From: Stigmatella ashevillena
GTDB taxonomy: Bacteria; Myxococcota; Myxococcia; Myxococcales; Myxococcaceae
Reading direction: 5' to 3'
NCBI RefSeq assembly: GCF_028368975.1
Contig: NZ_JAQNDM010000002.1
Location: 4,706,425 to 4,770,424, forward strand
DNA: 64,000 nt
The position numbers and the translations under genes were made by a program. Of the stretch, positions 36,270 through 63,386 are shown in pieces; the stretch's first letter is position 1, and every line of letters begins with the position of its first letter. The notes below the pieces were generated by a model, which made no database searches, was not told the origin of the DNA, and saw nothing but the letters and a program-made list of their open reading frames with translations.

Positions 36270-36271
36270 AC

Positions 36272-36661: not shown

Positions 36662-36674
36662 CGCCATGTCCTAA

Positions 36675-38276: not shown

Positions 38277-38285
38277 AGAGACGAC

Positions 38286-39619: not shown

Positions 39620-39627
39620 GGTCTTAC

Positions 39628-40125: not shown

Positions 40126-40197
40126 GGATTCCATGGTAGAGCGGCAGAGGATCGCAGGGCTGGCCACGCCAATAGGAGCCCGTCGTCCAGCGAACTA

Positions 40198-40588: not shown

Positions 40589-40631
40589 TCTTCCGATAGA
40601 CTGACGCCCTCCTCAAGCTGAAGGGTGTCTT

Positions 40632-42271: not shown

Positions 42272-42415
42272 ACAACTCCGGCTGTCCGGGCTCGTGAACC
42301 GTCATGCGTCCCGCCCCGCCGCAAGATAGGCATCCTCTTTTCTGTCCTCATTCATGGATTGCCGGTGGGGAACTTCGCTGTCACCGCTCGCACAGCATCC
42401 ATTACAGTCGCGCCG

Positions 42416-42982: not shown

Positions 42983-43216
42983 AAAGACGACTTATCTCGG
43001 GCAGCTCCCAGTGACCAGCAGGTTGAGTTCGGACGAGCCTCCCAGGCCCTCCGGCACAATGAATCCTTTCACATCCTCCATGTGAAGCCAGTCACAGCGC
43101 CTGTGAGGCTGGCAAGGCAGTCTGCGTTCCACCAAGGGGCACGAAAGAGCTGCCCTTGGGGACCAGATGCGGCCAACCGGCCCGTGTCGGTGCAACCCGT
43201 GAACAGGAGAAAAATC

Positions 43217-43552
43217 ATGGAAGGTATCTGGACTATCACTCAGACGTGGCAGGGCATTCCCGCTTACAAGTTCTCGGCGACGTTCGCCGCGAATGGCACC
43301 ATCACTGTCGACGGTGGGTACTTCGGCGTCTGGGACCGGCTGGGGAATTCCAATCAGGTCAGCCTGGCCATCGCCAACTTCGGGCAGTCCTCCATCACGG
43401 CCTATGTCGGCAACGTCGTCGGCCCGGCCATGGGTGGCCAGATGACGGGCTGCACCAAGGGGGGAACTCCCCTCCATGGCGAGTGGTCCGCTGCCCAGCA
43501 GCAGCACGCGGACGCGGTGCAGGGCGCGCTCCGCCCGCCTGGCGAGCGCTAA
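43217..43552 (+). CDS. small beta-rich protein of unknown function
   Basis: A 111-residue protein with AGGAG eight bases before the ATG. Sequence alternates short strands: GIWTITQTWQGIPAYKFSAT, FAANGTITVDGGYFGVWDRL, then QVSLAIANFG, ITAYVGNVVG and GGQMTGCTKGG. The pattern (W-strand, NGT turn, G-W, GQMTG) recalls small lipocalin or avidin-like barrels that measure substrate in a closed barrel, but no family is assigned. The C-terminal 20 residues are Gln/His-rich. No signal peptide. A hairpin terminator follows at 43599. It lies between the Imm11 block and an IS3 remnant, so it may be a cargo gene of the island. Confidence 0.65.
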   Translation: MEGIWTITQTWQGIPAYKFSATFAANGTITVDGGYFGVWDRLGNSNQVSLAIANFGQSSITAYVGNVVGPAMGGQMTGCTKGGTPLHGEWSAAQQQHADAVQGALRPPGER

Positions 43553-43598
43553 ACCACCGGAAGGTGCCGTTGTTCGCGGAAGGCAGCCTTTGCCTGCC

Positions 43599-43640
43599 CA
43601 GGCCCTGCATGGCTTTTGCGGCCACGCAGGGCCTGTCCTT
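43599..43640 (+). terminator. rho-independent terminator
   Basis: Perfect 10-base arms CAGGCCCTGC (43599-43608) and GCAGGGCCTG (43626-43635) with a 17-base loop, followed by TCCTTTTT. It lies 47 bp after the stop of the small beta-rich protein gene. Confidence 0.7.
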
Positions 43641-43661
43641 TTTCCAGGCACCTGGCGCGCC

Positions 43662-43749
43662 TGGACTTGCCTCCTTCTCTGGCTAGCCTCACTGCTTCGG
43701 CCTTGAGCTCCTCGGTGAACTTCCGCCTCTTCCTTCTCTCCATGGACAC
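43662..43749 (-). pseudogene. IS3-family OrfA N-terminal remnant
   Basis: About 27 codons reading MERRKRRKFTEELKAEAVRL plus AREGGKS, the typical start of an IS3-type OrfA helix-turn-helix. After GGKS the sequence no longer resembles a transposase. No OrfB or inverted repeats were found, so it is a small relic of insertion inside the island. Confidence 0.75.
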
Positions 43750-43925
43750 TCCTCCTTGTGCTTCGACTCATCGGGGGTGTCCACTCAATCGGGGCAGGCT
43801 CAGCACGCCCACGCATGTCGCTACGGTTTTGCGCCAGTTCACCCGTTGCACCGATGGCACTCTTCTGAGTCCTCTTTACCCGTCCTGCAAACTTCTCTGG
43901 GCTTCATGTCTTAAAGGGTGTCGCT

Positions 43926-44405
43926 TCAGGAAATGGGTTGGCCGATGCAAGCCTCCTCGTAGTCCCAACGTTCCTGGGCTTGCCCCAGTTCCAACTCCCG
44001 TTGGAGTCCCGCAAGAGAAACGGCTGGGGGCACATCGAGGGCAATAAGTCCCGGGATGTGGCTGCGCTCGCTCAGACACCCTTTCTGGCGGAAGTGCTCG
44101 AGGATCTTGGGGACCTCTGCCTCGTCGTAGACGATGAGGCGGAGGGTGCTATGACCCGAGGCTTGAACCACCTCTTTGAAACGCAGTGCCCCTCCCTCAG
44201 GAGTGGCCGCGACCAAGTCTCCCAACGCGATGCTGTGGGCAAAGAAGGGGATGTTGTCGACCCGGAAGAGCCCTTTTCCCACAGGAGTGGACCAGAGATT
44301 TTCATACTCGACAGGGGGATAGTCATCCTCGTCCCTTTCCAGGGCGACCACGATTTTGACCCGGTCTCCATCCTGCGATTCGCGCATGGTGTGCATTCCC
44401 GTCAC
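43926..44405 (-). CDS. DUF4265 protein, candidate immunity protein for the HNH nuclease
   Basis: A 159-residue DUF4265-type protein: KIVVALERDEDDYPPVEYEN, LFRVDNIPFFAHSIALGDLV, GGALRFKEVVQASGHSTLRL, HIPGLIALDVPP and RWDYEEACIG. The family is abundant in myxobacteria and actinobacteria; the role is not established, but members often sit beside toxin genes. Here the GTG start at 44405 overlaps the stop of the HNH gene (GTGA), so the two are translationally coupled, in the order toxin then immunity. It lacks a signal peptide and should act in the cytoplasm. Acidic overall, as suits a nuclease inhibitor. Confidence 0.8.
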   Translation of the reverse strand: MTGMHTMRESQDGDRVKIVVALERDEDDYPPVEYENLWSTPVGKGLFRVDNIPFFAHSIALGDLVAATPEGGALRFKEVVQASGHSTLRLIVYDEAEVPKILEHFRQKGCLSERSHIPGLIALDVPPAVSLAGLQRELELGQAQERWDYEEACIGQPIS

Positions 44406-44845
44406 GGCGCCTTGTCACTCTTCTCAAGATTGCAGTCACGGCACAGCACCTGACCGTTGTCAGGTTCCCCAGCACCCTCTTTGGCCTTGGGAACGATGTG
44501 ATCGACATGGGCCTCGTTGGGCGGTGGAGTCACATCCTTCTCGTGCTTCTTGGGCGAAACCGTCTCGGTGCCGCAGTTCTCACAACGGTTCTTTCCATCA
44601 TTCTGTGCAGCGTTCCTCTCCTTGACGATCGCCTTTCCCTTCTTGGTGAAGGGCTTGCCCGCGCGACTGCCAGCCGCAAATCCCCTCGCGTCCTCGGATG
44701 AGACAGAGGCGTCAGGGAGACCCACAAGCTCCACGCCAATGAATCCATTCAATCTTGGATGGCAGGCCAGATTGGCCTCAGAGGCCGGTAACGTCGTCTC
44801 CAGAATGAGCGGTAGAAGCACCAGCAGGAGGGGGGAGATGTGCAT
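44402..44845 (-). CDS. secreted HNH endonuclease, candidate toxin
   Basis: A 147-residue protein with a Sec signal (MHISPLLLVLLPLILETTLP) and, at residues about 80-145, an HNH nuclease with zinc-holding Cys pairs: RCENCGTE, EAHVDHIVPKAKEGAG, DNGQVLCRDCNLEKSD. The HVDHI His and downstream Asn are the catalytic residues for Mg2+-dependent DNA cleavage. An exported nuclease directly followed by a coupled small gene (DUF4265) has the form of a toxin-immunity pair. There is no long delivery domain and no lipobox, unlike the Sit toxin nearby, so the export route to a target cell is unknown; it could also be a trimmed toxin. A TTG at 44875 is an alternative start. Confidence 0.8.
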   Translation of the reverse strand: MHISPLLLVLLPLILETTLPASEANLACHPRLNGFIGVELVGLPDASVSSEDARGFAAGSRAGKPFTKKGKAIVKERNAAQNDGKNRCENCGTETVSPKKHEKDVTPPPNEAHVDHIVPKAKEGAGEPDNGQVLCRDCNLEKSDKAP

Positions 44846-44995
44846 TGACGGAGGGTACCTGCCTTCGCTGTGCAAGGGCGCAAGAAGGCATCCTTATGCA
44901 GAGTCCGCCCATGCCCCCGGCATCCATTAATGGACGAAGCCGCGTTTTGTAGGCAGCGCTCGTACCCGGGAAGCCCCAGCTTGGCGGGCGCAACC

Positions 44996-46816
44996 ATGAC
45001 CATCGCCATCGTTCTGGGCATCGTCTTCATCGCTCTGGTGCTGTTCTCGCTGGACACCCTCCCCATCGAGGTGAGCGCACTCACCATCGTCTGCCTCCTC
45101 GCGCTCACCCGGGTGCTCACCCCAGCACAGGCCTTCGAGGGGTTCAGCAATGACACCGTCATCTTCATCTTCTGCCTGCTGGCGATGACGCAGGGGCTCG
45201 CCTCCACGGGGGTGGTGCAGCTCATCGGGCAGCGGCTCTCCTTCTTCGCGCGCTACGGCCATCAGGTCTTCGTGCTCGCGATGATGGGCGCCGTGGCCGT
45301 CTTCTCCTCTGTCATCTCCAACACGGTGACGACAGCCGCCTTCCTGCCCGTGGCCATCGGCGCGGCCCATCGCGCCAAGGTCCCCAAGAGCAAGGTGCTC
45401 ATGCCCCTGGCCTACGCGTCGATGCTGGGGGGCATGGTCTTTCTCTACGGCACCTCCACCAACCTCGTGATGTCGGCGGCGATGCAAAAGCTGGGGATGA
45501 AAGGCATTGGCGTCGCAGAGCTGGCCCCCGTGGGGCTGCCCGTGGCGGTGCTGGGCATCCTCGTGGTGGTGCTGCTGGGCCCCCTGCTGTTGCCCGCACG
45601 CGAGGGCCAGGGGAGCGATGGCGGCTGGGCCTTGCGCGACTACCTCACGGAGGCCGTGTTGCCCGAGGGCTCGGCCTACCAGGGCAAGGAGCTCGGAGAC
45701 ATCTCCGAGGGCCTGGGACTGCGCGTCATCGGTATCCTCCGCGAGGGCCAGGCCATCGCGGCGGTCCCCTCCTACCGGCTGGAGGGCGACGAGCGGCTCA
45801 TCATCGAGGGCCGTCGCGAGGACATCCTCCGGGTCAAGGACCTTCGAGGCATCGAGCTCCGCTCGGACATGAAGCTGGGAGAGGGGGCTTTGGATTCCCG
45901 GGACACGGTGCTGGTGGAGGCCAGTGTGCCCGCGGGCAGCCCGCTCACGGGACGCAGCCTGAAAGAGGCGCTCTTCGCGGAGCGCTTCGGACTGGTGGCG
46001 CTGGCGCTGCACCGCAAGCCGGCCATTCAACGGCTCACCAAGCTGCAGATGCTGGGGCGCATCTTCGGCCAGCAGTCGCTCTCGACGATGCCCCTCTCCG
46101 TAGGCGATGTGCTGCTGCTGCGCGGGCCGCGCTCGCGCGTGGCGGAGCTGGCCGATGGCACGGCGCTGCTGGTGCTCTCCGACTACGAATATCAACCGCC
46201 GCGCTACGGCAAGGCGCTGCTCGCGGTGTGCTTCTTCCTGGGAGCGCTGGGAGCAGGCTCGCTGGGGCTGTTGCCCCTGTCGGTGGCGGGACTCGCGGGG
46301 ATGTTGGGGATGATCGCCACCGGGTGCGTGGACGCACGCGTTGCCTTCCGGGTGGACTGGCGGGTGGTGCTGCTCATCGGCTCGATGATGGCGCTGGGCG
46401 TGGCGATGGAACAGAGCGGGGCGGGGAAGTTCCTCGGCAGCCGGGTGGCGGAGCTCGGCGCCTATGGTGGCCCCCGGCTGGTGCTGACGATGCTGATGCT
46501 GATGACCATCCTGCTGTCGGCCCCCATGAGCAACCAAGCCGCAGCCTTGGTGGTGCTCCCGGTGGCGGTGAGCGCAGCAGCACAACTCGGAGTGGACGTG
46601 CGCCCGTTCGCCATCGGGGTGACCCTCGCCGCGAGCTGCTCGTTCATCACCCCCCTGGAGCCCAGCTGCGTGCTCGTCTACGGCCCCGGGCACTACCGCT
46701 TCACGGACTTCTTCCGGCTGGGCACGCCGCTGACCGCCGTGCTGGTGGTGTTCCTGGTCTTCGCGGTCCCCCTCGTGTGGCCCTTCGAGGGGGCACTCCC
46801 GACCGCCGCCCGGTAA
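44996..46816 (+). CDS. SLC13/DASS-type permease with two TrkA-C (RCK_C) domains
   Basis: A 606-residue membrane protein. Helices at residues about 5-230 and 395-600 surround two cytoplasmic RCK_C domains at about 205-380 (YQGKELGDISEGLGLRVIGI and AGSPLTGRSLKEALFAERFG). Family marks are SNTVTTAAFLPVAIGAA, GTSTNLVMSAAMQKLGMKG and SAPMSNQAAALVVLPVAVSA, the paired SNT-type loops that bind Na+ and the dicarboxylate or sulfate. Probably an anion:Na+ symporter regulated by the RCK domains. ATG at 44996 begins the first helix; the frame is open upstream to 44870. Confidence 0.88.
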   Translation: MTIAIVLGIVFIALVLFSLDTLPIEVSALTIVCLLALTRVLTPAQAFEGFSNDTVIFIFCLLAMTQGLASTGVVQLIGQRLSFFARYGHQVFVLAMMGAVAVFSSVISNTVTTAAFLPVAIGAAHRAKVPKSKVLMPLAYASMLGGMVFLYGTSTNLVMSAAMQKLGMKGIGVAELAPVGLPVAVLGILVVVLLGPLLLPAREGQGSDGGWALRDYLTEAVLPEGSAYQGKELGDISEGLGLRVIGILREGQAIAAVPSYRLEGDERLIIEGRREDILRVKDLRGIELRSDMKLGEGALDSRDTVLVEASVPAGSPLTGRSLKEALFAERFGLVALALHRKPAIQRLTKLQMLGRIFGQQSLSTMPLSVGDVLLLRGPRSRVAELADGTALLVLSDYEYQPPRYGKALLAVCFFLGALGAGSLGLLPLSVAGLAGMLGMIATGCVDARVAFRVDWRVVLLIGSMMALGVAMEQSGAGKFLGSRVAELGAYGGPRLVLTMLMLMTILLSAPMSNQAAALVVLPVAVSAAAQLGVDVRPFAIGVTLAASCSFITPLEPSCVLVYGPGHYRFTDFFRLGTPLTAVLVVFLVFAVPLVWPFEGALPTAAR

Positions 46817-51152: not shown

Positions 51153-51356
51153 TCTACCCCCTCGCCAGCACCATTCCCTAGCGCTCGTTTCATGTGCTGA
51201 ACGGACCGTCATTCCCGTGTCTTTTGGGACAGGCGTCCGATGGTTCGCCTGCCCGTCCCCGCCGCCCTCGGAGGGTACTCTCAGTCCGGCAAGCAATATC
51301 TTCCAACACTGTCGCGCGGGTGGCACTCCCCGCGCGCACAGCGAACCTTTCACGCC

Positions 51357-54300
51357 GTGAATGGGGATTCCGGCAAGAGGGTGGGGAGGTGGCTTCTCGG
51401 GACGCTCCTGGCCGTAGGTGCGCAGCACCCCGCGACAGCGCGCGCCGAGGGACCGCAGCGGTGTCCGCAGCGTCAACCGGCCTGGACCAACATCGCGCCC
51501 GAAGCGCGGATCACCACGTCCTCGGCCTATACCGACCCCCAGGGCGTCACCCAGGGTGGGTGTCAGGCCGTGGACGGGCTCATCGGCCTCGATGGCCGTG
51601 GCGAGTGGGTCTCCCACTGGGAAGTGAATCCGTGGATCCAGCTGGAGTGGGACACCGCGCGGACCCTCCACTCCATCGACCTGTATGATCGCGCGCACCC
51701 CTGGCCCAACCTGAACACCGGCATCCTGAGGTTCAGCGACAACACGGAGATCGACGTCAGCGGGATTCCCACCGACGGCGCCCTCAAATCCATCACGTTC
51801 GCGCCCAAGACGGTGACGTGGGTGAAGTTCGAGGCCACGGGCGGCGCAGGCAACCTCAATGGCCTGTCGGAGATCGCGGCCGGCGAAGCACAGCCTCTCA
51901 CGCGCAGCTACGCCCGAAGCGAGCAGGTCAACCTGGTCTTCTGGCCCGGCACCCGGCTGACCTCCAGCACGCCGTCCCAGGTGGGAACACGCCAGCTCCA
52001 CACCAAGTTCGGCGAAGACGCGAACAACTACCATGACTTTCCCAACGGCTCGTGGCTCCAGCTCGACCTGGGGGCGGGCAACGTGCAGCAGATCCACAAG
52101 GTGCGCCTGCGTTTTGGCACCGCCAGCACCGTCGCTACGGCGTACAAAATCTGGGTCGGCCCCACGCCAGACCTCGTGAACAGCACCCTGGCCGCCGACG
52201 TGAGCAACAACACCCGGCAGATCGTGACCCAGAAGTTCACGCCCATCCCCGGACGCTTCGTGCGCGTGCAGGTGTTCAATGCCGCCGCAGGCTCCCAGCC
52301 CGTGCGGGTGGACGGGTTGTCGGTCTACTCGACCGACCCGAAGCCGGTGACGCGGTACTATCCGGTCAACGAGCGCGGCTCTGGCAAGGCGAAGATCGAG
52401 CCGCTCCAGGGGTGGGGCTGGTACCACGCGGCGCGCAAGGCGGCCAACCTCCTCTCCGATGATCCGGTGACCGTCGCGCCGGACGACCGCGACGACAGCA
52501 ACACCCAGCTCGATCTGGCCCACGAGGGCGCGGCGTTCCGCGTCGAGTTGGATGACACCTACGCGCTGGAGAAGATGATCCTCGGCTTGGGCCGCATTCC
52601 TTCCACGCCCACGGCGCTCAAGGTCGAGCTGTCCGTCGATGACCTCCACTACCACACGGTCTTCGACGGCGACCTCCCCCCAGGTCACGCGCCGGTCCTG
52701 ACATGGTCCACGGACAGGGGCCAGGGTGATGCCAGGTATGTCCGCGTCACCCTTCCCAAGACGGCCGCGCCCCACCACGTGCGGGTGCTGTCCCGCCTGG
52801 AGCTGTACGGTTTGCCCGTGGCCTCGCCGGCGATCCTCCCCGGCGAAGAGCCCGAGGGCTTTCGCCCGGTAGGCACCCTCGATGTCCCCTTCGACGGCTA
52901 CCTCAGCGCCGCGATCTACAGCGCGCAGGGCCAGCTTGTCCGGACCCTGAAGAGCCGCGAACCCGTAGCCAGGGGCACGGACCGTCCGCTCTCCTGGAAT
53001 GGAAAGGACGATTTCGGCCGCGAGCTCCCGCCGGGTCCCTATCAGTGGAAGGCCGCCGTCAGCAGGGTGTCCTCCCGAGACGATGGCAGCGTGGGCAATA
53101 CGGGCAATCCCTCTCATGGACTGACCCATGCGCCCTACCACGCGGCGGCGCTGGCTTATGATGCGGAGGGCTATCTCTACACGGCCAGTTCCTGGGAAGA
53201 GCCCGAGATGGACTTGCGCCGCTACAAGCCCAATGGCACGCCGGATTGGGCCGTGCCGGGCAAGCTCAACACCGCCGTGGCCACCGATGGCCAGCATGTC
53301 TATGTGGCGCAGTGGAAGGAACACGATGGCCTCATGGCCAACATGATTCGCCGCCACCGTGCCAACGATGGCACCCCCTCGGGCTTCACCGGTACGGCCG
53401 ATGGAACGATTCTCATCAATCCCCCCGCCGCCAACCCCAAGCCCTCGACCCAACGCCGGGCCACGGCGGACCAGAGCCGCTGGTACGTGGGCATCAATGG
53501 ATTGGCCGTCGATGCCACCCGTGTCTGGGTAAGCAACTACCGGATGAACCGTGTCGAGTGCTACGACAAGGTGTCGGGCGCCCTCCACGGCTCCTTCGCC
53601 GTGAGCCAGCCGGTCGGCATCGCGGCCGGGGCCGACGGGTTCTTGTGGGTGGCCCACGCGGGCAGCCGTGTCACGAAGTTCCGCGCATCCATGCCGCAAG
53701 ATCCTTCCTGGGGAAAGCCCGCGGGCGGCATCTCCGGATTGGCCGATCCCTATGCCCTCTCGCTGGGGCTTGGCGGCCAGCGGCTGTTCCTGACCGAACA
53801 GGGCACCGGGAGCGTCCTGGAGTACAACACCTCCCAAGGCAAGCGCCTTGCCACCCATGGCAGGAAGGCCCAGCCTGGCCCGATGCAGGTGGATCATTTC
53901 CGCCTGGGCCACCGTGCCGGCATCGCCGTGGATGAGCAGGGCCGCTACGTCGTCGCGGACACCGGCAACCACCGTCTGCAATGGTTCTACGCCAATGGCA
54001 CCCTGCGACGCTCAATGAGCAGCGAGTTCATCTCCGCCCCGTTCGTTGATGAGACCGGTGCCAGCCCTCACTTCGTCCTCAGTGGACCGCGCCAATACAC
54101 GGTCGACCTGGCCACTGGAACGTGGCAGTACACACACAACTGGACGCCCACCGACAATGCGTTCTTCGATGAGGTCTCCAAGCGGCGCCGCTTGCAGGTG
54201 GGAACCCACCAAGGCACTCCCCTCTACCGGGATTTTCTTTTCTATACCTCCGACGGCTTCAGGGGAGGCGTGACCGTCTACCTGCTCGAACCTGGCGACA

Positions 54301-55166
54301 CCGGCATGCGCCGCGCCGCGAGCATTGGCTCGGGCTGGACCGGCGCCGAGGACAACACACTCCCGGGAAACCGCTGCTTCCGCTGGATCGACTCCTCCGC
54401 GGATGGCGTGGTCGATCCCCTGTCCGAAGTCACCTTCCCGGACCGCTGCATCGCGGGCGACATGAACGTCTGGGTCAGCGAGACCGGAGACCTATGGCTG
54501 TCGCAGACCTCGCCCGCGGAAGGGGCGGTGGTCATCCCCCTCCAGGGCTTCGATGCGCATTTCAATCCCATCTACGACTTCGCCTCCCGGACGTCTGTTC
54601 TGCCCTTGGACACCTCCCCCACGAGCTACCGCGCGGCGCTGATCCGTTCCATTCCTCACAGCAAGCAATTCCTCACCCTCGGTTCGACAGCGCAGAGCAA
54701 TCAGGCCCGTGGCACCAAGGGCTTCGGCCATGGCTACGTCGCTACGCTCCACCATCCCGATGGGTCGGAGAAGGTGCGCGTCAACCTCCCGGACGAGTGG
54801 AAGGCTTTCACCATCGCTGCGGATGGCGAGTACTGGTACACGGGCCACTCTCGCGATGACCAGCATTGGGTTCATATGTATGACGAAGATGGGTTGCTCA
54901 TCGCAACGATGCGCCCTGGTGCGCCCAGCCGCTGGGGGGCCGGCTGGATGGACCACTCCTCGTCCATGACGGCCCGGAAAGAGCCCGGCACCCACACCCA
55001 CTACGTCTACGCCGAGGATGTCTTCTGGGGCCGGATGATCCGCTACGCCACGGTGGTCAACCCTGGCGACGTGAGCCGGAGCAGTGGCACCTTCACGTGG
55101 CCTGCTTGGCGAGCTGCGTCCCTTCGACTTCCCCGGATACTCGCCCAGAAGTTGCCAGCGCGATGA
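51357..55166 (+). CDS. large secreted discoidin / FlgD-Ig / beta-propeller protein
   Basis: A 1269-residue exported protein. The GTG at 51357 begins a Sec signal (RVGRWLLGTLLAVGAQHPAT), though the frame is open to 51240. Residues about 40-175 and 185-330 are F5/8 type C (discoidin) jelly-roll domains (GEWVSHWEVNPWIQLEWD; SWLQLDLGAGNVQQIHKVRL), and a third such domain covers about 350-510. Next is an FlgD-like Ig strand set (YSAQGQLVRTLKSREPV, LSWNGKDDFGRELPPGPY), then to the C-terminus NHL/SMP-30-like propeller repeats such as GIAVDEQGRYVVADTGNHRL and GFLWVAHAGS. Discoidin domains usually bind glycans, so adhesion to matrix or prey polysaccharide is likely. No catalytic site was identified. 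Confidence 0.8.
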   Translation: MNGDSGKRVGRWLLGTLLAVGAQHPATARAEGPQRCPQRQPAWTNIAPEARITTSSAYTDPQGVTQGGCQAVDGLIGLDGRGEWVSHWEVNPWIQLEWDTARTLHSIDLYDRAHPWPNLNTGILRFSDNTEIDVSGIPTDGALKSITFAPKTVTWVKFEATGGAGNLNGLSEIAAGEAQPLTRSYARSEQVNLVFWPGTRLTSSTPSQVGTRQLHTKFGEDANNYHDFPNGSWLQLDLGAGNVQQIHKVRLRFGTASTVATAYKIWVGPTPDLVNSTLAADVSNNTRQIVTQKFTPIPGRFVRVQVFNAAAGSQPVRVDGLSVYSTDPKPVTRYYPVNERGSGKAKIEPLQGWGWYHAARKAANLLSDDPVTVAPDDRDDSNTQLDLAHEGAAFRVELDDTYALEKMILGLGRIPSTPTALKVELSVDDLHYHTVFDGDLPPGHAPVLTWSTDRGQGDARYVRVTLPKTAAPHHVRVLSRLELYGLPVASPAILPGEEPEGFRPVGTLDVPFDGYLSAAIYSAQGQLVRTLKSREPVARGTDRPLSWNGKDDFGRELPPGPYQWKAAVSRVSSRDDGSVGNTGNPSHGLTHAPYHAAALAYDAEGYLYTASSWEEPEMDLRRYKPNGTPDWAVPGKLNTAVATDGQHVYVAQWKEHDGLMANMIRRHRANDGTPSGFTGTADGTILINPPAANPKPSTQRRATADQSRWYVGINGLAVDATRVWVSNYRMNRVECYDKVSGALHGSFAVSQPVGIAAGADGFLWVAHAGSRVTKFRASMPQDPSWGKPAGGISGLADPYALSLGLGGQRLFLTEQGTGSVLEYNTSQGKRLATHGRKAQPGPMQVDHFRLGHRAGIAVDEQGRYVVADTGNHRLQWFYANGTLRRSMSSEFISAPFVDETGASPHFVLSGPRQYTVDLATGTWQYTHNWTPTDNAFFDEVSKRRRLQVGTHQGTPLYRDFLFYTSDGFRGGVTVYLLEPGDTGMRRAASIGSGWTGAEDNTLPGNRCFRWIDSSADGVVDPLSEVTFPDRCIAGDMNVWVSETGDLWLSQTSPAEGAVVIPLQGFDAHFNPIYDFASRTSVLPLDTSPTSYRAALIRSIPHSKQFLTLGSTAQSNQARGTKGFGHGYVATLHHPDGSEKVRVNLPDEWKAFTIAADGEYWYTGHSRDDQHWVHMYDEDGLLIATMRPGAPSRWGAGWMDHSSSMTARKEPGTHTHYVYAEDVFWGRMIRYATVVNPGDVSRSSGTFTWPAWRAASLRLPRILAQKLPAR

Positions 55167-55236
55167 GACGCAAAGACGTGCCGATGATGCCCACACGGCG
55201 TGAACTTGTTCGCATAGTGAAGTCGGCTCGTTAGAC

Positions 55237-55545
55237 CACCCGCGTGCGGCGCTGCTGGCCTTTGGCGTGTCGGTGATGGCCTACAACGTGCTGGCCGTCT
55301 TGCTGGGGCAGTCGAGGAGGAGCATCACCTGCAGGCGACGGAGGTGTCCTCCTACTACGTCGCGGGCGAAGTGGAAGCCACCTACAACGGGATGATGATT
55401 GCCCATCCTGAGAAGACCTGGGACAGTTTCGAACCCCAGTCAGACGAGTAGCTGTGTCAGACGCAGCAGCAGATAGCCCGGCAGGTTAACCCGGCCAAGC
55501 TGCGCAAGCACCCTCAAGGGCCTAAGAAGAAGGTAACCGTTCACC
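55237..55545 (+). pseudogene. IS4-type transposase C-terminal remnant
   Basis: Reads HPRAALLAFGVSVMAYNVLA in one frame and, after a shift near 55311, EEEHHLQATEVSSYYVAGEV, EATYNGMMIAHP and, past an in-frame stop at about 55449, ARQVNPAKLRKHPQGPKKKV. This is the C-terminus of an IS4-like transposase with at least one frameshift and one stop. The catalytic core is missing. Confidence 0.75.
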
Positions 55546-55548
55546 ACC

Positions 55549-56856
55549 TCAGGCAGCGTTGGCAAGCTGAGGAGTCTCCGCAACGGGCAGCAGCGAGGGT
55601 GTCTGAAGGCCGCGTCGGTGCGAGTGTAACGTATCCGTCAGGAAGTTCAGCACGCCGCGCTGTTGGAGCTTGAGGGTGGTGACTTCTCCCACTGGAGAAT
55701 CTCCCGGGCCATCCCTGCCGTCTTCTCCGCGCCCACTGCGGCACGGCGCAGCAGTCGCCCCACTTCGCGCTCTACCTCGGGCATTCTCTTCTCGAACTCT
55801 TGGCGAGTCATGGTCCCATCTCGCGCGCGGTGGTACCAAGTGAAGAAGCGGTTTCTCTGGCGCATCAACTTCTTGCCCAGGCGGCCGCCCTTGCCGCCGC
55901 GGTCAATGAAGCCCTGGAAGTCTCGGGTGAGGTGCGCCCAGCACACTTGCCGCAGGCCCGCGTCGTACCACGCGTAGCCGCTCCACCTGTCGGTGCCGAG
56001 GAAGCCTGTGAAGTCCTCTCCCAGCAGGGTACGCGCTACCTTGCTGCCTCGACTCGTGGCGGATATGGAAGAGAGCCACCCACGCGGTGGCCACCCTCCA
56101 CAGCCAAGCGCGCTTGCCTCGGCCGCCCTCGCGCCCCTCCACCCATCTCGTTTCATCCGCATGCACCGTGGTGGCTGACTGCACGCACTGGGCGGCTTGG
56201 GCCACCCCAGGCGCCAGCGCATCGACCATCTCCTCTTCGAGGTTGACCCCACTGCCCACACACAATTCGACACCCAACATGTCTGACAGCGCGTCCTTCA
56301 CCAGCCGCTTGGACAGCCGGTACTTGCCCACCAGGAGGCTGGCCAGGGCACCCAACCTGTCCCCGAAGGCGCTGCGCGCATGCGCCGACACCGGCTGTCG
56401 CGTCACCGTACCGCACGCGCTGCACTCCAACGCGTGGCTGCGGTACTCGGTGATGACAGCCGACAGGGGCGGCACCTCCACCACTTGATGCCGCTGCGGC
56501 TTTGCGTCCCGCCCTATCAGCTTTCTGCGACAGCTCTTGCATTGCGTGGGAACCAACTCGACGAAGTGCTGCACGGCCTCGGACGGCACCAGCCTTCGCT
56601 CATGCTTCTTGTGTCCGGGCTGGCCGCCGGGTCGCTTCCCGGTGAGCTTCTTCCCGGGGCGCGGGCTGCCAGGCGCATCAGATGAGGGGGGACGCGAGGA
56701 GTTGCTGGAGTTCTGGGCCAGCCGCTGCTCCAGTTCCGCCACCCGTTGGGTGAGCGCACTCACCAGCGCCATCAGCTGCGCAATGCGCTCGTCCCTCTGC
56801 GCCACCTGCGCTTCCAGCTCCGCGATTCGGACATCTCTGGCATCTCCTGGGCTCAC
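55549..56856 (-). pseudogene. IS66-family transposase, broken
   Basis: The N-terminal 270 residues are in one frame from the ATG at 56856: a coiled coil and leader (LEQRLAQNSSNSSRPPSSDA, KKLTGKRPGGQPGHKKHERR), a Cys zinc motif (CKSCRRK, CSACGT) and VHADETRWVEGREG. Near 56050 the frame shifts to EDFTGFLGTDRWSGYAWYDA and CWAHLTRDFQGFID. A second break with loss of the catalytic-Glu region precedes the terminal VLNFLTDTLHSHRRGLQT. Two lesions make it inactive. Terminal inverted repeats were not identified. Confidence 0.85.
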
Positions 56857-57200
56857 CTCACAGGTAGTATCTTCCTCGGCCTACCCTGTCGACAGATTCC
56901 TCTGCCCTCTGTCCTCTCCCGCTCGCCCCTCAGACAGCCCAGTCCGGTGAACGCTTACGCTCGTCCGAGGCCCCCCCTCCATCACCTTCAAAGGGAGTGC
57001 CTCTAAGCGCAGGAGCGCTACAGTAACCCAATCACATGGACCTTGAGGGAGAACGGGCCCCTGTGCGCGTCTCGGATGGTGTCTGGATAGACCCGTCAAA
57101 CCTCCTCGGGCAGAGCAACGAGGTGCCTATCTGGTCGATCCCACAACGCTCCCTAACTTAGTAGCCGACCCGGTCGATGGCCCGAAAAAACGTGGGAGTA
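56857..57200. other. 344-bp stretch without a recognised gene
   Basis: Lies between the IS66 remnant and the MITE-like element. Composition is mixed; no open frame shows codon bias. I see nothing assignable; it may contain the lost left end of the IS66 copy. Confidence 0.4.
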
Positions 57201-57288
57201 GCTCAGAGCTCCTAACAAAAATAAGGACTGGGGCCATCTCCCGAGGGGAAGCCCCCCTCGGAAGGGACTTTTGTTAGGAACTCTCAGC
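57201..57288. mobile_element. MITE-like element with 20-bp terminal inverted repeats
   Basis: Left end GCTCAGAGCTCCTAACAAAA (57201-57220), right end the inverse of GCTGAGAGTTCCTAACAAAA (57269-57288), 18 of 20 positions matching, around 48 bases. The centre has its own dyad, CCCGAGGGG and CCCCCCTCGG. The CTAACAAAA ends resemble those of IS5-group elements as I recall them. No coding capacity, so it is non-autonomous; as RNA it would form a long hairpin. Confidence 0.65.
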
Positions 57289-57291
57289 CGC

Positions 57292-57489
57292 ATGGAGACG
57301 AAGACGGCTCTTTCATGTCCTGAGGCCGCAGCTCCGCAGGACTCAAATGGGCGCGTCCGGGGCATGACAACTCTTCCCCTCTTTCTTTACAGGGAGACTG
57401 AACTGTCCTCGGATAATTCGACTCCCAACTTCCTGGAGTCTGCCTCTGTATTGTTAGTCAGCCAGTGCTGCTGTGCTGGGCACATTTGA
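57292..57489 (+). CDS. hypothetical small Cys-tailed peptide
   Basis: A 65-codon open frame starting four bases after the MITE-like element, with AGGAA ten bases upstream of the ATG. It reads METKTALSCPEAAAPQDSNG and ends LLVSQCCCAGHI. Three adjacent Cys at the end and position upstream of an ATP-grasp operon make a precursor peptide conceivable, but composition gives no clear coding signal and no leader family is recognised. Treat as doubtful. Confidence 0.2.
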   Translation: METKTALSCPEAAAPQDSNGRVRGMTTLPLFLYRETELSSDNSTPNFLESASVLLVSQCCCAGHI

Positions 57490-57524
57490 ATCCCAGGCGC
57501 TCCCAAGACTTCACTGGAAATTTA

Positions 57525-57605
57525 CGGAGTTATTGACATTCAAATAAAAGACTTCACGCAGTTTGCTTTCCTTTTAAAAATACGTATTCTGGCCTCACGG
57601 GCTAA
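57525..57605 (+). promoter_or_regulatory. AT-rich candidate promoter region of the FAD/ATP-grasp/MFS operon
   Basis: TTGACA at 57533-57538 followed by an AT-rich run (CAAATAAAAG, CCTTTTAAAAATACGTATTC) in otherwise GC-rich sequence, 45-120 bp before the first gene of the operon. No clear -10 box was fixed at 17 bases. Confidence 0.3.
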
Positions 57606-57649
57606 ACCCGTAGTTCCACTCGTGGAATCCTTTCCGTTTCTCCATCGGC

Positions 57650-59158
57650 ATGAGTGCTCACAATAGCGACGCGAAGAATATCACCGTCGTGGGGGGCGGG
57701 GCTTCGGCTGTCTCCCTTTTGGCGAATCTGGCTGACCTGACATCAGGCCAAGCGGAATCCTGTCAACGGAGCCCTCTTGGCAAGGCTGGAGGTTATACCG
57801 TTCGCATCATCGAGATGGCACATTGCGTGGGGCCTGGACGTGCCTACCGGCATCGCTCAGATGAATTGAGCCTCAACACCGATGCCGATACGATGGGCAT
57901 ACGAAGCAAGCAAGAGTTCTCGAATTGGCTAAGGGAGAAGAACATCGCGCAGGGAAGCATCCCTCGGAGCCTGTTTGCTCAGTATTTAAGACAGAAATTA
58001 GAGCATGCGATAGCGCAACTCGCGCTGTCTGGTGTTCATGTGGAACTAGTACGGGCTGAGGTCCGAGATATCGAACGGCATCTGGCAGGTTACGCCATTC
58101 GAACCGACCGCCAGGAGATATTTCAGTCAGACCTCCTGGTGCTTGCATCCGGGGGAAGCTATGGCACACCCTATGAAAGCCTGAGCCACCCTCAGGAGCA
58201 GTGCCTCACACTGGACAACCTGGAGGATGCAGCTCCCCTATTGCAGAATGAAGCCGAAATCGTGGTGCTGGGAACAAGCCAGAGCGCCATCGACGCGGCA
58301 CTCTTCCTATCACGAACTACTTCCGCCCGTATCACCCTGGCTTCCCGGTGGGGAGGGCTTCCCTTGACCAAGGGGAAGCCCAAGGCTTACATCAACCAGC
58401 GGTTGAACGCCACCCACTGCCCACTGACGCTTCAGGAGTTCATGAGGCTTCTGGAAGAAGAACTCCAGTGCGCGGAAGCCTATCCCTCTCAGCCACATCA
58501 CATCCCCAGGGGTGCCTCTCTTCTGACCTCGATCAGCTCACGGTCCTTCAACGAGAGCATCCAGGAGGCGAGAATATTCCGGCTTGGTTGGCAAGCGGTG
58601 ATGAACAACCTCACACCTCAGCTACAGGCCATCTACGAACGCTTTACCCCAGAAGAAAAGCTTCAATTCGCGGATACGTGCCTCCCCTCGTTGCGGCGGC
58701 TGCGGGGTGCCATTCCCCTGCAGAATGCGGAAAGACTCTTCCGGCTGCTCGATCACCAACGTGTTCGCGTATTGCCGGGTGTTCGTGACGTAAGGTACAG
58801 TGCTCGAACCGGTTATTACTCTTTGGTATTCGATGCATCCATGTTGGAGAGCAAGTTCATTGTCAATACAACCGGCCTAGTTTACAAAGCTCAGGCTCAT
58901 CCGCTGCTGAAGCGCCTTCCCTTCATTCGCACCAATCTATTGGGTGGCGTCAGTGTGGACGTGCATACCATGCGGGTTATTGATGGCTTGGGGAAGCCAG
59001 ACCCTACGTGCTACTGTCTTGGAGCCAACACCTACGGCGACTTCATCATCACCAACTCGATGGAGATCTGCGCAAGACAGGCGCGCAGCGCCGCAGCCAG
59101 CATCCTTCAAATGTTCCTTACTGACCCCTTGTCGCCGTCGCCTCGAGCCGCCTCATGA
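57650..59158 (+). CDS. FAD/NAD(P)-binding oxidoreductase (COG4529-like)
   Basis: A 502-residue flavoprotein. Dinucleotide fold 1: ITVVGGGASAVSLLANL near residue 10. The segment GPGRAYRHRSDELSLNTDAD near 70 is the family mark of COG4529-type proteins; a second nucleotide site is IVVLGTSQSAIDAALFLS near 200. The C-terminal part ends with a flavin-contact style YCLGANTYGDFIITNS. Such proteins resemble N-hydroxylating or Baeyer-Villiger monooxygenases, but this branch has no defined reaction. It is the first of three genes joined by 4-base overlaps (ATGA, then GTGA). GC is clearly lower than in the surrounding chromosome. Probably a tailoring oxidase acting on a small substrate made with the ATP-grasp ligase. 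Confidence 0.82.
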   Translation: MSAHNSDAKNITVVGGGASAVSLLANLADLTSGQAESCQRSPLGKAGGYTVRIIEMAHCVGPGRAYRHRSDELSLNTDADTMGIRSKQEFSNWLREKNIAQGSIPRSLFAQYLRQKLEHAIAQLALSGVHVELVRAEVRDIERHLAGYAIRTDRQEIFQSDLLVLASGGSYGTPYESLSHPQEQCLTLDNLEDAAPLLQNEAEIVVLGTSQSAIDAALFLSRTTSARITLASRWGGLPLTKGKPKAYINQRLNATHCPLTLQEFMRLLEEELQCAEAYPSQPHHIPRGASLLTSISSRSFNESIQEARIFRLGWQAVMNNLTPQLQAIYERFTPEEKLQFADTCLPSLRRLRGAIPLQNAERLFRLLDHQRVRVLPGVRDVRYSARTGYYSLVFDASMLESKFIVNTTGLVYKAQAHPLLKRLPFIRTNLLGGVSVDVHTMRVIDGLGKPDPTCYCLGANTYGDFIITNSMEICARQARSAAASILQMFLTDPLSPSPRAAS

Positions 59159-60405
59159 AAGTTTTCATCCTCTCTGCCCGGAATGCTGATTTCTACTCTC
59201 TGAAGAATATTTCCCGCCAATGCGATCTCTTCTTGATTGCGACCCCGGCACAAGTCCGGGGTATGCGGGAAGACGTACGTCAGCATTTCCAAGAGATCAT
59301 CGAAGTGCGAGAGGTCCTGGACCGGGTCTCGCGTGTATCCACCTTCGATAAGAGCGAGACAGCCCAAGCCATCCGGCGCCGCATTCAAGAGGGCGAGAAC
59401 TTCCGCATTATTTGCAACCAAGAAGCCAATCTGTTGGTAGCCTCGGAGTTGCGCGAGGAGTTTGGGATTCCGGGTCCCAGGCCCCGCCAGATCGAGCCTT
59501 TTCGCAATAAGCTGCTCATGAAGAGCCGTCTGAGCAGCTTGAGTAACCACCTGCCCCGCTATGTAGACCTGGAGGGAGTACAGGACTCTCTGCGGTCGAG
59601 TCCGCACGCCGCCTACTCTCTGCTGAGAGAACAGCTCGGGTCCGCGCTGATCCTCAAGCCCAAGAGTTCTGTGGGCAGCCGAGGCGTCTACTTGGTTCGC
59701 GAGTGGGAGGAGTTCGAATCGTTTCTCACAAACGAGTCCGAGTTCATCCCGTCGTATGAGGCTGATGAGTATATCCAGGGAACCTTGTACGAATGCGATT
59801 CCGTTGTCCAGCGTGGGCAATTTCTTTTTTCTGAATGCAGCCTGTATACTTGCCCCAACCTTGAGTTTCAATTTGGCAAGAACCTCGGCAGCCTACCCTT
59901 GGCCCCAAACAACCCAGAGGCCATCAAACTCAAGGAGTTCTCCCGCCAGGTTCTCTCCAATTTCGATCTTCCTGATTCAGCTTTCCACATGGAGATCTTT
60001 CTCCGGCCTGATGGGACACCCGTATTCCTCGAAGTGGCTGCTCGCGTCCCCGGGCTTGCCTCCGTGCCGCTCTACGCCATCCAGCACGGGGTCAATATGC
60101 TCGACCTCGAGTTTAGAGTGCAGACAGGCATCCAGTTCGACTCTGACATCAAGGCGCGCGCGGAAAGTTGCTTCTACATGGTTTTCCCGAAGAAAGATGG
60201 GCTCATCACGGAGCTTTGCAATCCGCCCGTGGAAAGTCCCTATACGCTTGACTGGAAGGTGAAGGAGGGGGAGCGCACAACACGAACCACAACCAACATC
60301 GAATACGCAGGATTGCTGGTAGCGCACGGCACAGCCCAACAAGTGTTCCAAGAGTTCGAGCGAACCCGGAGCTTCGATCCCATCCGGACGAGTCAGCGCT
60401 CGTGA
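59155..60405 (+). CDS. ATP-grasp ligase
   Basis: A 416-residue ATP-grasp enzyme of the carboxylate-amine ligase type. N-terminal Rossmann-like part (MKVFILSARNADFYSLKNIS), central ATP-grasp with FRNKLLMKSRL, the lysine/glycine loop ALILKPKSSVGSRGVYLV, and the Mg-binding strand RPDGTPVFLEVAARVPG. It should activate a carboxylate as acyl phosphate and join it to an amine or thiol, as in dipeptide synthases (BacD, DdaF) and related antibiotic ligases. It does not look like graspetide ligases, which need a peptide precursor. The ATG overlaps the stop of the FAD gene (ATGA). Substrates unknown. Confidence 0.85.
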   Translation: MKVFILSARNADFYSLKNISRQCDLFLIATPAQVRGMREDVRQHFQEIIEVREVLDRVSRVSTFDKSETAQAIRRRIQEGENFRIICNQEANLLVASELREEFGIPGPRPRQIEPFRNKLLMKSRLSSLSNHLPRYVDLEGVQDSLRSSPHAAYSLLREQLGSALILKPKSSVGSRGVYLVREWEEFESFLTNESEFIPSYEADEYIQGTLYECDSVVQRGQFLFSECSLYTCPNLEFQFGKNLGSLPLAPNNPEAIKLKEFSRQVLSNFDLPDSAFHMEIFLRPDGTPVFLEVAARVPGLASVPLYAIQHGVNMLDLEFRVQTGIQFDSDIKARAESCFYMVFPKKDGLITELCNPPVESPYTLDWKVKEGERTTRTTTNIEYAGLLVAHGTAQQVFQEFERTRSFDPIRTSQRS

Positions 60406-61658
60406 ATGTCTCGCACCCTGGCCCTTCTACGCCGCCGGGTGGCCGGTCGCGGCCACTCCACGTCTCTCTGCTGTGTCTGACCATCGCCCAGATCGGAATT
60501 ACCTTCTATCTGCCTGCATTTCCTCTTTACGCAGCGGACATCGGCGAGCCCCTAGAAAAGATTCTCGGCACGGTAGCGATCTATCTTTTATTTTACGGTG
60601 TCGCACAATTGCTGGCGGGGCCTCTCTCAGATCGGGTGGGCCGACGCCCCCTGCTTCTGACAGGCCTAGGCATCTTTACACTTTGTGCGCTGCTCATACC
60701 GCTCGCGAAAAGCGCCTCCGCTCTCCATGTTCTACGCGCAATTCAAGGCGCAGGCGGAGGCGTGCTGTCCGTCATGGTGAAGTTGATTCTTCGCGACTCA
60801 TACGCAGAAGGAGAGTTGACCCGGGCCTTTTCCATATTGGAAGCAGCATCGAGCGCAACACCTGCGATTGCTCCATTCCTGGGTGGGCTAATTTGCTCAA
60901 GATGGGGCTGGCAGGCGAGCTTCTTGGCCGTGGGGGCATGGGCCGCATTGGCAGGGTCTACCGTACTGGGGCTTTACGACACGCGCTGGCAAGAACGTTC
61001 CGTTCCCACGGAAACGGTCTCCTTCAGATCATTTTTGAAGTCATACTTGCACTTGTTCAATCGCATGGAATTCGTTTTCGCCGGGATGATCGTTCTCATG
61101 ACCTACGTGGCGAACCTCGTTTTCCTGTCTTTTTCTCCCATGTTGTTTCAAAGAGACTTGCATCTCTCTGCATCGAACTATGGGCAGCTCATGATGCTCC
61201 CAGCGGCAGCCACAGCGCTCGGAGGATTTGTGGGATCTCGTCTGTCCACGCGGCTGGCGTCCATGCGCGTGCTCCAAGCGGGTGCTTCAGGGTTGCTGCT
61301 CTCAGGGGGCTTCCTCTGCTCGTTCTGGTTCTGGCCGACGCTCTCTGTCATGAGAGCGCTGCTTCCCTTCATGGGAATGGCTTTCTCTGCGTCACTCATT
61401 TTTCCTTGTGCCTATAGTATCGCTTTTAGCGCTCACCCAGCCAAAGGAGGGTTTGTCGCGGCAATGCTGGGATGTCTCCAGCTCTCGGGCGCATCTTTCT
61501 TCCGGCTCTGGTTGGCGCCAGGCCTTTCGAATTTGGTGGAGATCGGTGTTCTGTACTCAGCCATTTCTCTGGTGCTGCTCTTCATGGCAGTAGGTCTGAG
61601 CCTCTTTCGAGGGAAGGACGAGCCAACAGTTTTTCCTGAGAGCATCAAGATCAAGTGA
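60402..61658 (+). CDS. MFS exporter, Bcr/CflA-like
   Basis: A 418-residue, twelve-helix major facilitator. Motif A is GPLSDRVGRRPLLL in loop 2-3; helix 4 has LRAIQGAGGGVLSVM, the usual drug:H+ antiporter form of Bcr/CflA. The start is GTG at 60402 overlapping the stop of the ATP-grasp gene (GTGA), so expression is coupled. As the last gene of the set it most likely exports the operon's product and may give self-resistance. No terminator hairpin is clear after the stop. Confidence 0.88.
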   Translation: MNVSHPGPSTPPGGRSRPLHVSLLCLTIAQIGITFYLPAFPLYAADIGEPLEKILGTVAIYLLFYGVAQLLAGPLSDRVGRRPLLLTGLGIFTLCALLIPLAKSASALHVLRAIQGAGGGVLSVMVKLILRDSYAEGELTRAFSILEAASSATPAIAPFLGGLICSRWGWQASFLAVGAWAALAGSTVLGLYDTRWQERSVPTETVSFRSFLKSYLHLFNRMEFVFAGMIVLMTYVANLVFLSFSPMLFQRDLHLSASNYGQLMMLPAAATALGGFVGSRLSTRLASMRVLQAGASGLLLSGGFLCSFWFWPTLSVMRALLPFMGMAFSASLIFPCAYSIAFSAHPAKGGFVAAMLGCLQLSGASFFRLWLAPGLSNLVEIGVLYSAISLVLLFMAVGLSLFRGKDEPTVFPESIKIK

Positions 61659-62065
61659 CTGGGCTCTTGAACTCACTCCTTTCAAGATGTCGAGGCGTGT
61701 CGCTGGGCATGTTCGGCGGGCACGCAGGGTGCATTTCCGCCACCTGCTGTACCCCCATGCGCGGGCAAGTAGATTCGTCAAGAATCGAACGCAGGTGTCG
61801 CCTTTCTGGTGGGCTCGTTCAGACACGCCCTCAGGGCGCTGTTGGCGGAAATGCAAACAGCTTCGTGAAATGCTCTCCTTACCTCGACAACGGCTCAAGA
61901 GCCTTCCACCGCATATGCCCCCTGGTCACCTCTTGTGGGTGTACTACTGAATTTCCTGATACTGCCAACCGTTCCGTATCTATCGAACGGAATGGCTTCA
62001 AGGTAGCTAGCTCTCTGGGAAGTAAGTGAGCACCCTTCCACCAATTGAGGACGGAGGGGAGACTC
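61659..62065. other. 407-bp intergenic region after the biosynthetic operon
   Basis: No supported gene. It holds a 12-bp inverted repeat (61731-61742 and 61843-61854). A minus-strand open frame of 113 codons crosses it but enters the MFS gene antisense and lacks codon bias. Confidence 0.4.
61731..61854. repeat. 12-bp inverted repeats 100 bp apart
   Basis: GCATTTCCGCCA (61731-61742) and TGGCGGAAATGC (61843-61854) are perfect inverse copies. The 124-bp unit could be a short non-autonomous element or a structured leader; no direct target repeats were found. Confidence 0.4.
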
Positions 62066-63349
62066 ATGGGGTGGACGGGATGGTTCTCGGGAAAAGTGTT
62101 GACCGTTGCACTGCTCGCACAGGCTGCGGGCTGCTCTTCAGAAGAGTCGGCTCCGGGTGAGTCCCCCCCTCGCGAGGAGCAACTGCCCACCTATCAAGAG
62201 CCGCCCGAGGAGCAGGCACCTGGAGAGCCTCCCCCCGGGCAGCAACCTCCCCCGGCGCCGGAGAACCCTCCCGCCAAGCCTGAGAATCCCTGGCCATCAC
62301 TTTCATGCGAGGCGATTCGGCCAGGAGAACTCGGCCCTGGCATGAGCATCGTCCTCGACGCGAATGCACCTGAGGCCAACTGTGGCCCTGGAGTGACCGA
62401 TGGCGCGGGATTCCTGGCGCTCATGAATTCCGGGCCGATTGGGGCACGGGCCTGGGATGTCGTGTCCCCCATGGGAGTCTTCACGGGGAATCTGATGCTA
62501 GGCGGTGATATGGCTTTCGACGTCTCGCCCCAGCCGAGCGGATTCCACGTCATTCGCATCACTCCGCCCGGCGGCCTCTCGATGACGGTCCACTCCTCCG
62601 AGGGGATTTTCGTGCGGTCCGTTTCGCTGTTCGCGGACGATGACGTGCCTTCCTTCGTGACCGAGGATCCCCGAGGCGGCGAGCTGATCGCCCAGTGGGC
62701 TCCGCGAACAGACGGCACCCAAGTCCTGACGTTCCAATTCCTCGACGTGGCGGGATTGCCTCGCACGCAACCCATCGAGGCCGTGTCCGCGCCCCTGAGC
62801 GAGACCCGCTCCATCGTCGCGGGAGTGGACACCTGGGGCCGTGCGCTCCTGTTGTGGAAGGAGCCCAGCACCTGGAAGGGGCAGTGGTGGAACCGGCAGG
62901 GAGTTCCTGTCACGCAGCCCTTCTCCGTCCCGAGTCTCGCCTCCACCCCACCGGGAGGGCTGATCCCGCTGGCCGGAGGAGGGCTCGCGGTGCAGAGCAA
63001 TGGCCAATGGGTCGCGAAGTTCCCCAGCGGGCAGGCCGTGGCACAGCCTGCCCCGGCGTGGTTGGCGAGCCATCCCAATACCCAATTGGTCCTCATCCGC
63101 GGCCAACAGGCCAACGCCCTGGTGCCCCCCCCAGTGTTCGTCGAAGACTCAGGGTGCCAGGAGACCCTCCTTCTCTTCGCCCGTGATGGCACGGCGTGTG
63201 GCGAGCTTCTCCTGCCGCCCGATGGGTCCACCTGCTTCCTCCGAAGACTCGGCATCGGCCCGGATGGAACGGTTACCCAGCAGATCGACCTGAGCGCTCA
63301 ATCCACGAATCAATGCTCCTGGCGCTGGTGGCCCGGGCTGCTTCAGTAA
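62066..63349 (+). CDS. Pro-rich lipoprotein, probable beta-propeller
   Basis: A 427-residue lipoprotein: signal VLTVALLAQAAGC with lipobox AAGC. Residues about 22-75 are a Pro/Glu linker (PPEEQAPGEPPPGQQPPPAP), then a domain of about 340 residues with repeated short strands (VLTFQFLDVAGLPRTQPIEA, ALLLWKEPSTWKGQWWNRQG) in the manner of a propeller. Several Cys in the last third may form disulphides. GGAGGGGA before the ATG supports 62066. Probably surface-attached; function unknown. Confidence 0.75.
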   Translation: MGWTGWFSGKVLTVALLAQAAGCSSEESAPGESPPREEQLPTYQEPPEEQAPGEPPPGQQPPPAPENPPAKPENPWPSLSCEAIRPGELGPGMSIVLDANAPEANCGPGVTDGAGFLALMNSGPIGARAWDVVSPMGVFTGNLMLGGDMAFDVSPQPSGFHVIRITPPGGLSMTVHSSEGIFVRSVSLFADDDVPSFVTEDPRGGELIAQWAPRTDGTQVLTFQFLDVAGLPRTQPIEAVSAPLSETRSIVAGVDTWGRALLLWKEPSTWKGQWWNRQGVPVTQPFSVPSLASTPPGGLIPLAGGGLAVQSNGQWVAKFPSGQAVAQPAPAWLASHPNTQLVLIRGQQANALVPPPVFVEDSGCQETLLLFARDGTACGELLLPPDGSTCFLRRLGIGPDGTVTQQIDLSAQSTNQCSWRWWPGLLQ

Positions 63350-63357
63350 GGATCCCC

Positions 63358-63386
63358 GCGGGCCGTTCTGGATCCGAACGGCCCGC
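63358..63386. terminator. strong hairpin after the Pro-rich lipoprotein gene
   Basis: Perfect 11-base arms GCGGGCCGTTC (63358-63368) and GAACGGCCCGC (63376-63386), 7-base loop, 9 bp after the stop. No T-run follows, so it may terminate or protect the 3' end. Confidence 0.5.

Follow-up and report, generated by a model that had tools for sequence, protein, structure and literature searches.

A coupled flavin monooxygenase-like protein, ATP-grasp ligase and exporter in Stigmatella ashevillena: a candidate minimal pathway to an N-oxygenated dipeptide

What could three tightly coupled genes make in the company of no nonribosomal peptide synthetase (NRPS), polyketide synthase (PKS) or ribosomally synthesised and post-translationally modified peptide (RiPP) enzymes? 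The question is raised by a short operon on the forward strand of a 64,000-nucleotide stretch of the Stigmatella ashevillena genome (hereafter the window, to whose positions all coordinates refer unless a locus is named). Its genes encode a 502-aa protein binding flavin adenine dinucleotide (FAD) and NAD(P) (57650-59158), a 416-aa ATP-grasp protein (59155-60405) and a 418-aa exporter of the major facilitator superfamily (MFS; 60402-61658). All three open reading frames (ORFs) are intact and, as the initial annotation had described, they are coupled by stop/start overlaps, ATGA at 59155-59158 and GTGA at 60402-60405. Most likely the enzymes of the operon turn common amino acids into an N-oxygenated dipeptide or amide, which the exporter then secretes, a reading to which a probability of roughly 0.5 is given. 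That the operon is a biosynthetic oxygenase-ligase-exporter unit is likely in its own right, and whether nitrogen in particular is oxygenated is evenly balanced. A modified dipeptide or conjugate formed without NRPS, PKS or RiPP enzymes had been proposed initially and remains the best-supported reading, with the correction that the first enzyme resembles a monooxygenase and not an oxidase.

The FAD protein exceeded the curated cut-off of PF13454 (78 bits, cut-off 21.8), a family also matched by all ten members of the relatives' set A1, and it passed those of PF13738 (41.2 bits, cut-off 30) and of the lysine/ornithine N-monooxygenase family PF13434 (24.2 bits, cut-off 21.3). A single-sequence search of the Protein Data Bank (PDB) found no convincing match (best 0.0066). 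When ten relatives were combined in a profile, 8cp2/8cp5, named in the PDB entry titles as the L-aspartate N-hydroxylase FzmM, came top (3.6e-15) and flavin-containing monooxygenases next (4e-9). FzmM (8cp5/8cp2) was also the top Foldseek match of a structure model built from five sequences (E 8e-20, TM by query length 0.63-0.65), followed by SidA and DesB and then by putrescine, lysine and cadaverine hydroxylases. The available part of the FzmM report (PMC10404684) presents 8CP2 as the aspartate complex, with Asn62 above flavin C4a and an aspartate entry chamber consisting of Arg13 plus Arg276, Asn413, Arg416 and Arg577. Asn62 corresponds to Asn76 in the window protein and was kept in 20 of 20 aligned sequences. 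Arg13 is replaced by Ser19, with arginine in none of the 20, and the other four chamber residues fall in a helical domain that did not align reliably with the FAD protein. Retention of the catalytic asparagine together with replacement of Arg13 makes an amine other than aspartate the likelier substrate. On these comparisons, the protein fits a class B flavin monooxygenase better than the oxidase of the initial annotation, and is probably an amine N-hydroxylase that probably acts on a substrate other than aspartate. A viral fold search returned weak, short matches alone, including a phage lysine/ornithine monooxygenase, and PADLOC returned nothing at E <= 0.1.

The same comparisons bear on whether the cassette might oxygenate carbon or sulphur, yielding a C-hydroxylated or S-oxidised dipeptide through ring hydroxylation, Baeyer-Villiger oxidation or S-oxidation. 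HpyO, a member of PF13454, reportedly performs ring hydroxylation; flavin-containing monooxygenases follow FzmM in the profile search and also rank high in VIA-align; and the aspartate-binding arginine has been lost. Nevertheless, FzmM heads both the profile and the Foldseek results, amine N-hydroxylases come next in the latter, the PF13434 cut-off is passed, and the general relatives that lack a ligase fall on a separate branch of the FAD-protein tree (described below). Oxygenation of carbon or sulphur is accordingly regarded as rather unlikely, and an N-oxygenated product as the preferred reading.

The second gene product was named from its nearest relatives because it did not reach a Pfam cut-off. 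With phmmer against the PDB, RizA (4wd3; 1.3e-13) was the sole match at E <= 0.01, and a profile of the three closest ligases retrieved RizA, BacD and the L-amino-acid ligase 30vh, and no others, at 1e-5. A wider profile of 11 ligases again put L-amino-acid ligases at the top, followed by the glycinamide synthetase 4dim, which scored near BacD, and then by D-Ala ligases. The catalytic residues K119, K168, E280, E293 and R297 are common to the window ligase, RizA and BacD; in an 11-sequence alignment four of them are invariant and E280 is nearly so. The protein, for which ATP-dependent peptide synthesis is predicted, is closest to ATP-grasp L-amino-acid ligases and not to a known primary-metabolism enzyme, an identity that would have counted against the proposal of the initial annotation. 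A single-sequence structure model of the ligase (pLDDT, the predicted local distance difference test, 37) was discarded. Two other ATP-grasp genes of the same genome (L018 8546-9796 and L019 7781-8944), each adjoining a similar esterase-like gene, encode proteins distant from the window ligase (29% and 26%).

The third gene product scored 146.6 bits against PF07690 (cut-off 33.4). The Bcr/CflA model TIGR00710 gave 159.7 bits over residues 22-362 with a cut-off of 200.9, making the exporter a relative and not a formal member, and the EmrD model likewise matched it with a score under the model's cut-off. The exporter is thus related to the EmrD and Bcr/CflA transporters.

Do these genes belong together? 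The FAD and ATP-grasp genes recur as a unit elsewhere, as the proposal of the initial annotation required. In a search of 195 genomes of the phylum, the own genome included (FAD protein at E <= 1e-15, ligase at E <= 1e-30), the FAD protein was found at four loci in three genomes, with a ligase beside it or fused to it at all four. Ligase relatives were found in five genomes, G066 and G097 among them having no FAD match at the threshold. A genome of the same family, G065, carries the whole operon in the same order (identity 63% for the FAD protein, 72% for the ligase and 74% for the exporter), with an ATGA overlap between the FAD and ligase genes and TTGA between the ligase and exporter genes. 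In G139 both enzymes are fused in a single 921-aa protein, and a second locus in G065 holds the same fused gene, broken by a frameshift. Searching plasmids by tblastn with the FAD protein matched 27 records, of which 11 loci were read; an ATP-grasp gene adjoins the FAD gene or lies one gene away in six of them (Pantoea stewartii, Phaeobacter, Vibrio coralliilyticus, Photobacterium, Streptomyces anulatus and Leisingera). The Pantoea stewartii plasmid has the window gene order with overlaps of 4 (ATGA) and 8 bases, and its operon has a GC content of 39.5% vs 48.7% in the surrounding stretch and no match in the E. coli genomes searched, while the Photobacterium unit is present with its genes reordered.

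The FAD proteins themselves were compared in a tree of 20 sequences, ten paired with a ligase and ten unpaired. The window, G065 and Pantoea proteins group together (support 0.977), and seven of the ten unpaired proteins share a single branch (support 1.0), next to which stands an eighth (0.736); the unpaired Thioclava and Streptomyces NBC_00335 proteins sit among the paired ones. A scan of genome contigs with the window FAD protein alone found no relative, and an alignment of seven FAD sequences was too diverse as a search query. A three-sequence profile found at least four loci, with two weak patterns only; they hold general PF13454 relatives with no ATP-grasp gene seen among their ORFs, two of the loci having short flanks.

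Between the window and G065, nonsynonymous divergence (dN) is 0.28, 0.17 and 0.20 and synonymous divergence (dS) 1.51, 1.40 and 1.45 for the FAD, ligase and exporter genes, respectively, giving dN/dS ratios of about 0.19, 0.12 and 0.14 with dS near saturation. Purifying selection acts on all three genes. That they are unrelated neighbours brought together by a mobile element might be suspected from the position of this low-GC stretch beside a transposase remnant, and from the finding that no promoter-like site rose above chance, as also held for terminator-like sites. Such an accident is very improbable, and already largely refuted by recurrence, as gene order and overlaps are repeated in G065 and Pantoea stewartii, the two enzymes are fused in G139 and selection maintains every gene.

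The exporters are more changeable than the enzymes. The window and G065 operons have EmrD/Bcr-like MFS proteins, and Pantoea and Photobacterium have MFS proteins of the PF05977/TIGR00900 type with no blastp link to the window exporter at E <= 1. In G139 the pair stands with an EamA protein, and in Phaeobacter with a PF05145 protein, an annotation shared by its Leisingera counterpart; the records call both AbrB regulators, but PF05145 is a membrane family. Counting these PF05145-type genes, an exporter-like gene adjoins the pair in 7 of 10 paired loci, the Vibrio, S. anulatus and broken G065 loci having none. Enzymes that stay the same while the exporter beside them changes are what a secreted product would lead one to expect.

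Taken in sequence, the proposed pathway would begin with the FAD protein, which, once reduced by NADPH, would react with O2 to form a C4a-hydroperoxyflavin and oxygenate an amino acid or amide, most likely at the amine nitrogen. Using ATP, the ligase would activate a carboxylate as an acyl phosphate and couple this to an amine or hydroxylamine. The result would be an N-oxygenated dipeptide or amide, and oxygenation and ligation could occur in either order. The MFS protein, judging by its family, would export the product and so protect the producer. No further obvious biosynthetic gene directly adjoins the window, Pantoea, Photobacterium or Vibrio copies, suggesting that the substrates are probably common amino acids or primary metabolites. 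The fusion in G139 suggests a short-lived intermediate passing between two sites. On a wider and more tentative view, given less than even odds, the pair would be a minimal machine, mobile and widespread, that makes a new class of dipeptides oxygenated on nitrogen (N-hydroxy, nitroso, nitro or hydroxamate). A labile intermediate would be handed over, sometimes within one polypeptide, exporters would be interchangeable, and plasmids and insertions would carry the unit between distant bacteria.

An operon of this kind might also serve protection: its enzymes would oxidise and conjugate a toxic analogue of an amino acid, produced by other organisms, and its MFS protein would pump out the conjugate. 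A small mobile unit with a drug-type exporter would suit that role, as would the finding that no regulator or resistance target was seen adjoining the window operon. The surroundings of other copies look biosynthetic, however: genes for an adenylation-thioesterase protein, a PhyH oxygenase and an EamA transporter surround the fused pair of G139, and a second ATP-grasp gene accompanies the Phaeobacter and Leisingera copies, together with aldolase and aminotransferase genes. Protection is considered improbable.

Several points weigh against biosynthesis of an N-oxygenated dipeptide or amide. Beside the replacement of Arg13, the structure model of the FAD protein is poor (pLDDT 64.6, predicted template-modelling score 0.64) and worst in the substrate domain. 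In VIA-align, FzmM (Z 21.4, root-mean-square deviation 4.8, 445 residues) is tied with disulphide reductases (Z 22.4, 309 residues) and other flavoproteins; this tie marks the dinucleotide domains as generic, and coverage of the remainder favours FzmM. The ligase stays below the Pfam ATP-grasp cut-offs (ATP-grasp_4, 22.3 bits vs 27). In five of the 11 plasmid loci (Streptomyces NBC_00335, Thioclava, Paracoccus, Mesorhizobium and Rhizobium), no ATP-grasp gene is annotated within 8-10 kb of the FAD gene. The distances of the FAD and ligase partners correlate at 0.94 over 36 pairs but at 0.42 over the 34 that remain without two near pairs, outside which the FAD proteins are far apart, at 18-27% identity. 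Moreover, the Vibrio and S. anulatus copies have a ligase subtype in common (28%) but not an FAD subtype (18%), a mismatch suggesting that the pairing may have more than one origin and that products may differ. Substrate, step order and product are themselves inferred.

A stretch of about 8.25 kb that contains the operon (55110-63358) is missing at the same site in all three congeners compared by blastn (G096, G097 and G095), and this absence, from about 55.1 to 63.36 kb, is the firmest sign of foreign origin. Five of six other congeners match the gene at 51240-55166. The congener match stops at 55110 (G096), 55081 (G097) and 55098 (G095) and restarts 77-107 bases later, at 63358 (G096), 63370 (G097) and 63370 (G095), so that the insertion edges vary by up to about 30 bases between the three. 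The lower GC content noted initially is borne out, at 55.9% in the operon vs 65.7% in the whole window, and third-position GC is likewise lower (0.63, 0.68 and 0.62 in the FAD, ligase and exporter genes vs 0.83 in the gene at 51240-55163). In a set of 300 stretches, each of 4009 bases, taken across the window, GC was lowest in the one starting at 57201, and eight have a GC content lower than that of the operon or at most half a per cent above it. A second low-GC stretch (57-64%) lies at 36001-45000.

Borders of insertion sequence (IS) remnants and a miniature inverted-repeat transposable element (MITE) had been described, and upstream that description stands. On the reverse strand, 55647-56856 holds a frame-broken IS66 transposase remnant, whose two ORFs lie in different frames and score 28.8 and 38.1 bits against DDE_Tnp_IS66 (cut-off 23.1). 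The 20-nt inverted ends of a MITE-like element at 57201-57288 are 90% complementary. This element occurs at eight genomic places, itself included, several of them partial, and had no match in the plasmids searched. Downstream lies a dispersed 73-base repeat fragment (61861-61933), found at seven other places of the own genome with 73-76% identity; it may be a mobile-element remnant but matched no Pfam family. A gene inside the insertion at 62069-63349 also had no Pfam match. The operon was most likely acquired horizontally, on a foreign-looking insertion.

Compared with known systems, the FAD protein comes nearest to FzmM and CreE, the L-aspartate N-hydroxylases of fosfazinomycin and cremeomycin, which give the best profile and Foldseek match and have the catalytic asparagine in common with it, but are about 600 aa long vs 502 aa and have arginine (Arg13) in place of serine. 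Their pathways, as described in the accessible part of the source (PMC7347517), pair the oxygenase with a lyase, whereas the window pairs it with a ligase. RizA and BacD are the nearest solved relatives of the window ligase and share its catalytic residues, but identity to them is low and their partner enzymes differ. The nearest working analogy is pseudouridimycin, for which the portion of the source at hand (PMC10127198) has an ATP-grasp ligase and an N-hydroxylating flavoenzyme (PumK/PumE) proposed to act one after the other on a Gly-Gln unit; these are part of a larger nucleoside cluster and are likened here by description, not by sequence. The mangotoxin mbo operon, in the available text (PMC13185094), is likewise short and combines an oxygenase with ATP-grasp amino-acid ligases, but it has two ligases, and its oxygenase MboA is no flavoprotein but a heme-oxygenase-like diiron enzyme. 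The pCN101 operon of Pantoea stewartii has the window gene order and overlaps at 27% (FAD) and 35% (ligase) identity, with an exporter of another MFS family, PF05977. Pantoea PNP-1 and HiVir were rejected as related systems, as their gene sets differ in the parts of the sources available.

Among the papers listed by searches of the open-licence literature, whose wording was not exhaustive, none described the pairing of a PF13454 oxygenase with an ATP-grasp ligase. ATP-grasp dipeptide pathways are already known; what appears to be new within ATP-grasp small-peptide biosynthesis is this particular pairing, with the chemistry a prediction. If the prediction holds, about 4 kb of DNA would suffice to assemble an N-oxygenated dipeptide from ordinary amino acids and to export it, and so small a unit could readily be expressed and tested. 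Such an operon would probably be missed by cluster finders that rely on NRPS, PKS or RiPP signatures. The fused G139 protein would offer a direct test case for the channelling of an unstable N-hydroxy intermediate.

The genes around other copies vary. In Pantoea, an arylamine N-acetyltransferase gene lies 80 bases beyond the operon. In G065 the exporter gene is followed on its own strand, after about 185 bases, by a class V aminotransferase gene (L014 5198-6529) that was not seen beside the window operon. At the G139 locus (L012, G139:C64, 3971-14050) the EamA transporter gene and a reading frame that by eye is CsiD-like come after the fused ligase-FAD gene. Encoded nearby are the adenylation-thioesterase protein and the PhyH-family oxygenase, whose iron site reads His-x-Ala, as in SyrB2-type halogenases; the locus is possibly a larger cluster built on the same enzyme pair. 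The Phaeobacter (L021 8706-17020) and Leisingera (L031 6549-14743) loci add to the pair, besides the second ATP-grasp gene and the aminotransferase, a 4-hydroxy-2-oxovalerate aldolase and an acetaldehyde dehydrogenase, which could supply a hydroxynorvaline-like amino acid. Plasmids of Burkholderia glumae and Pantoea sp. (L025/L026) carry a different short operon, with a related ATP-grasp gene, an iron-containing redox enzyme, an aminotransferase, another FAD protein and a TauD-type oxygenase.

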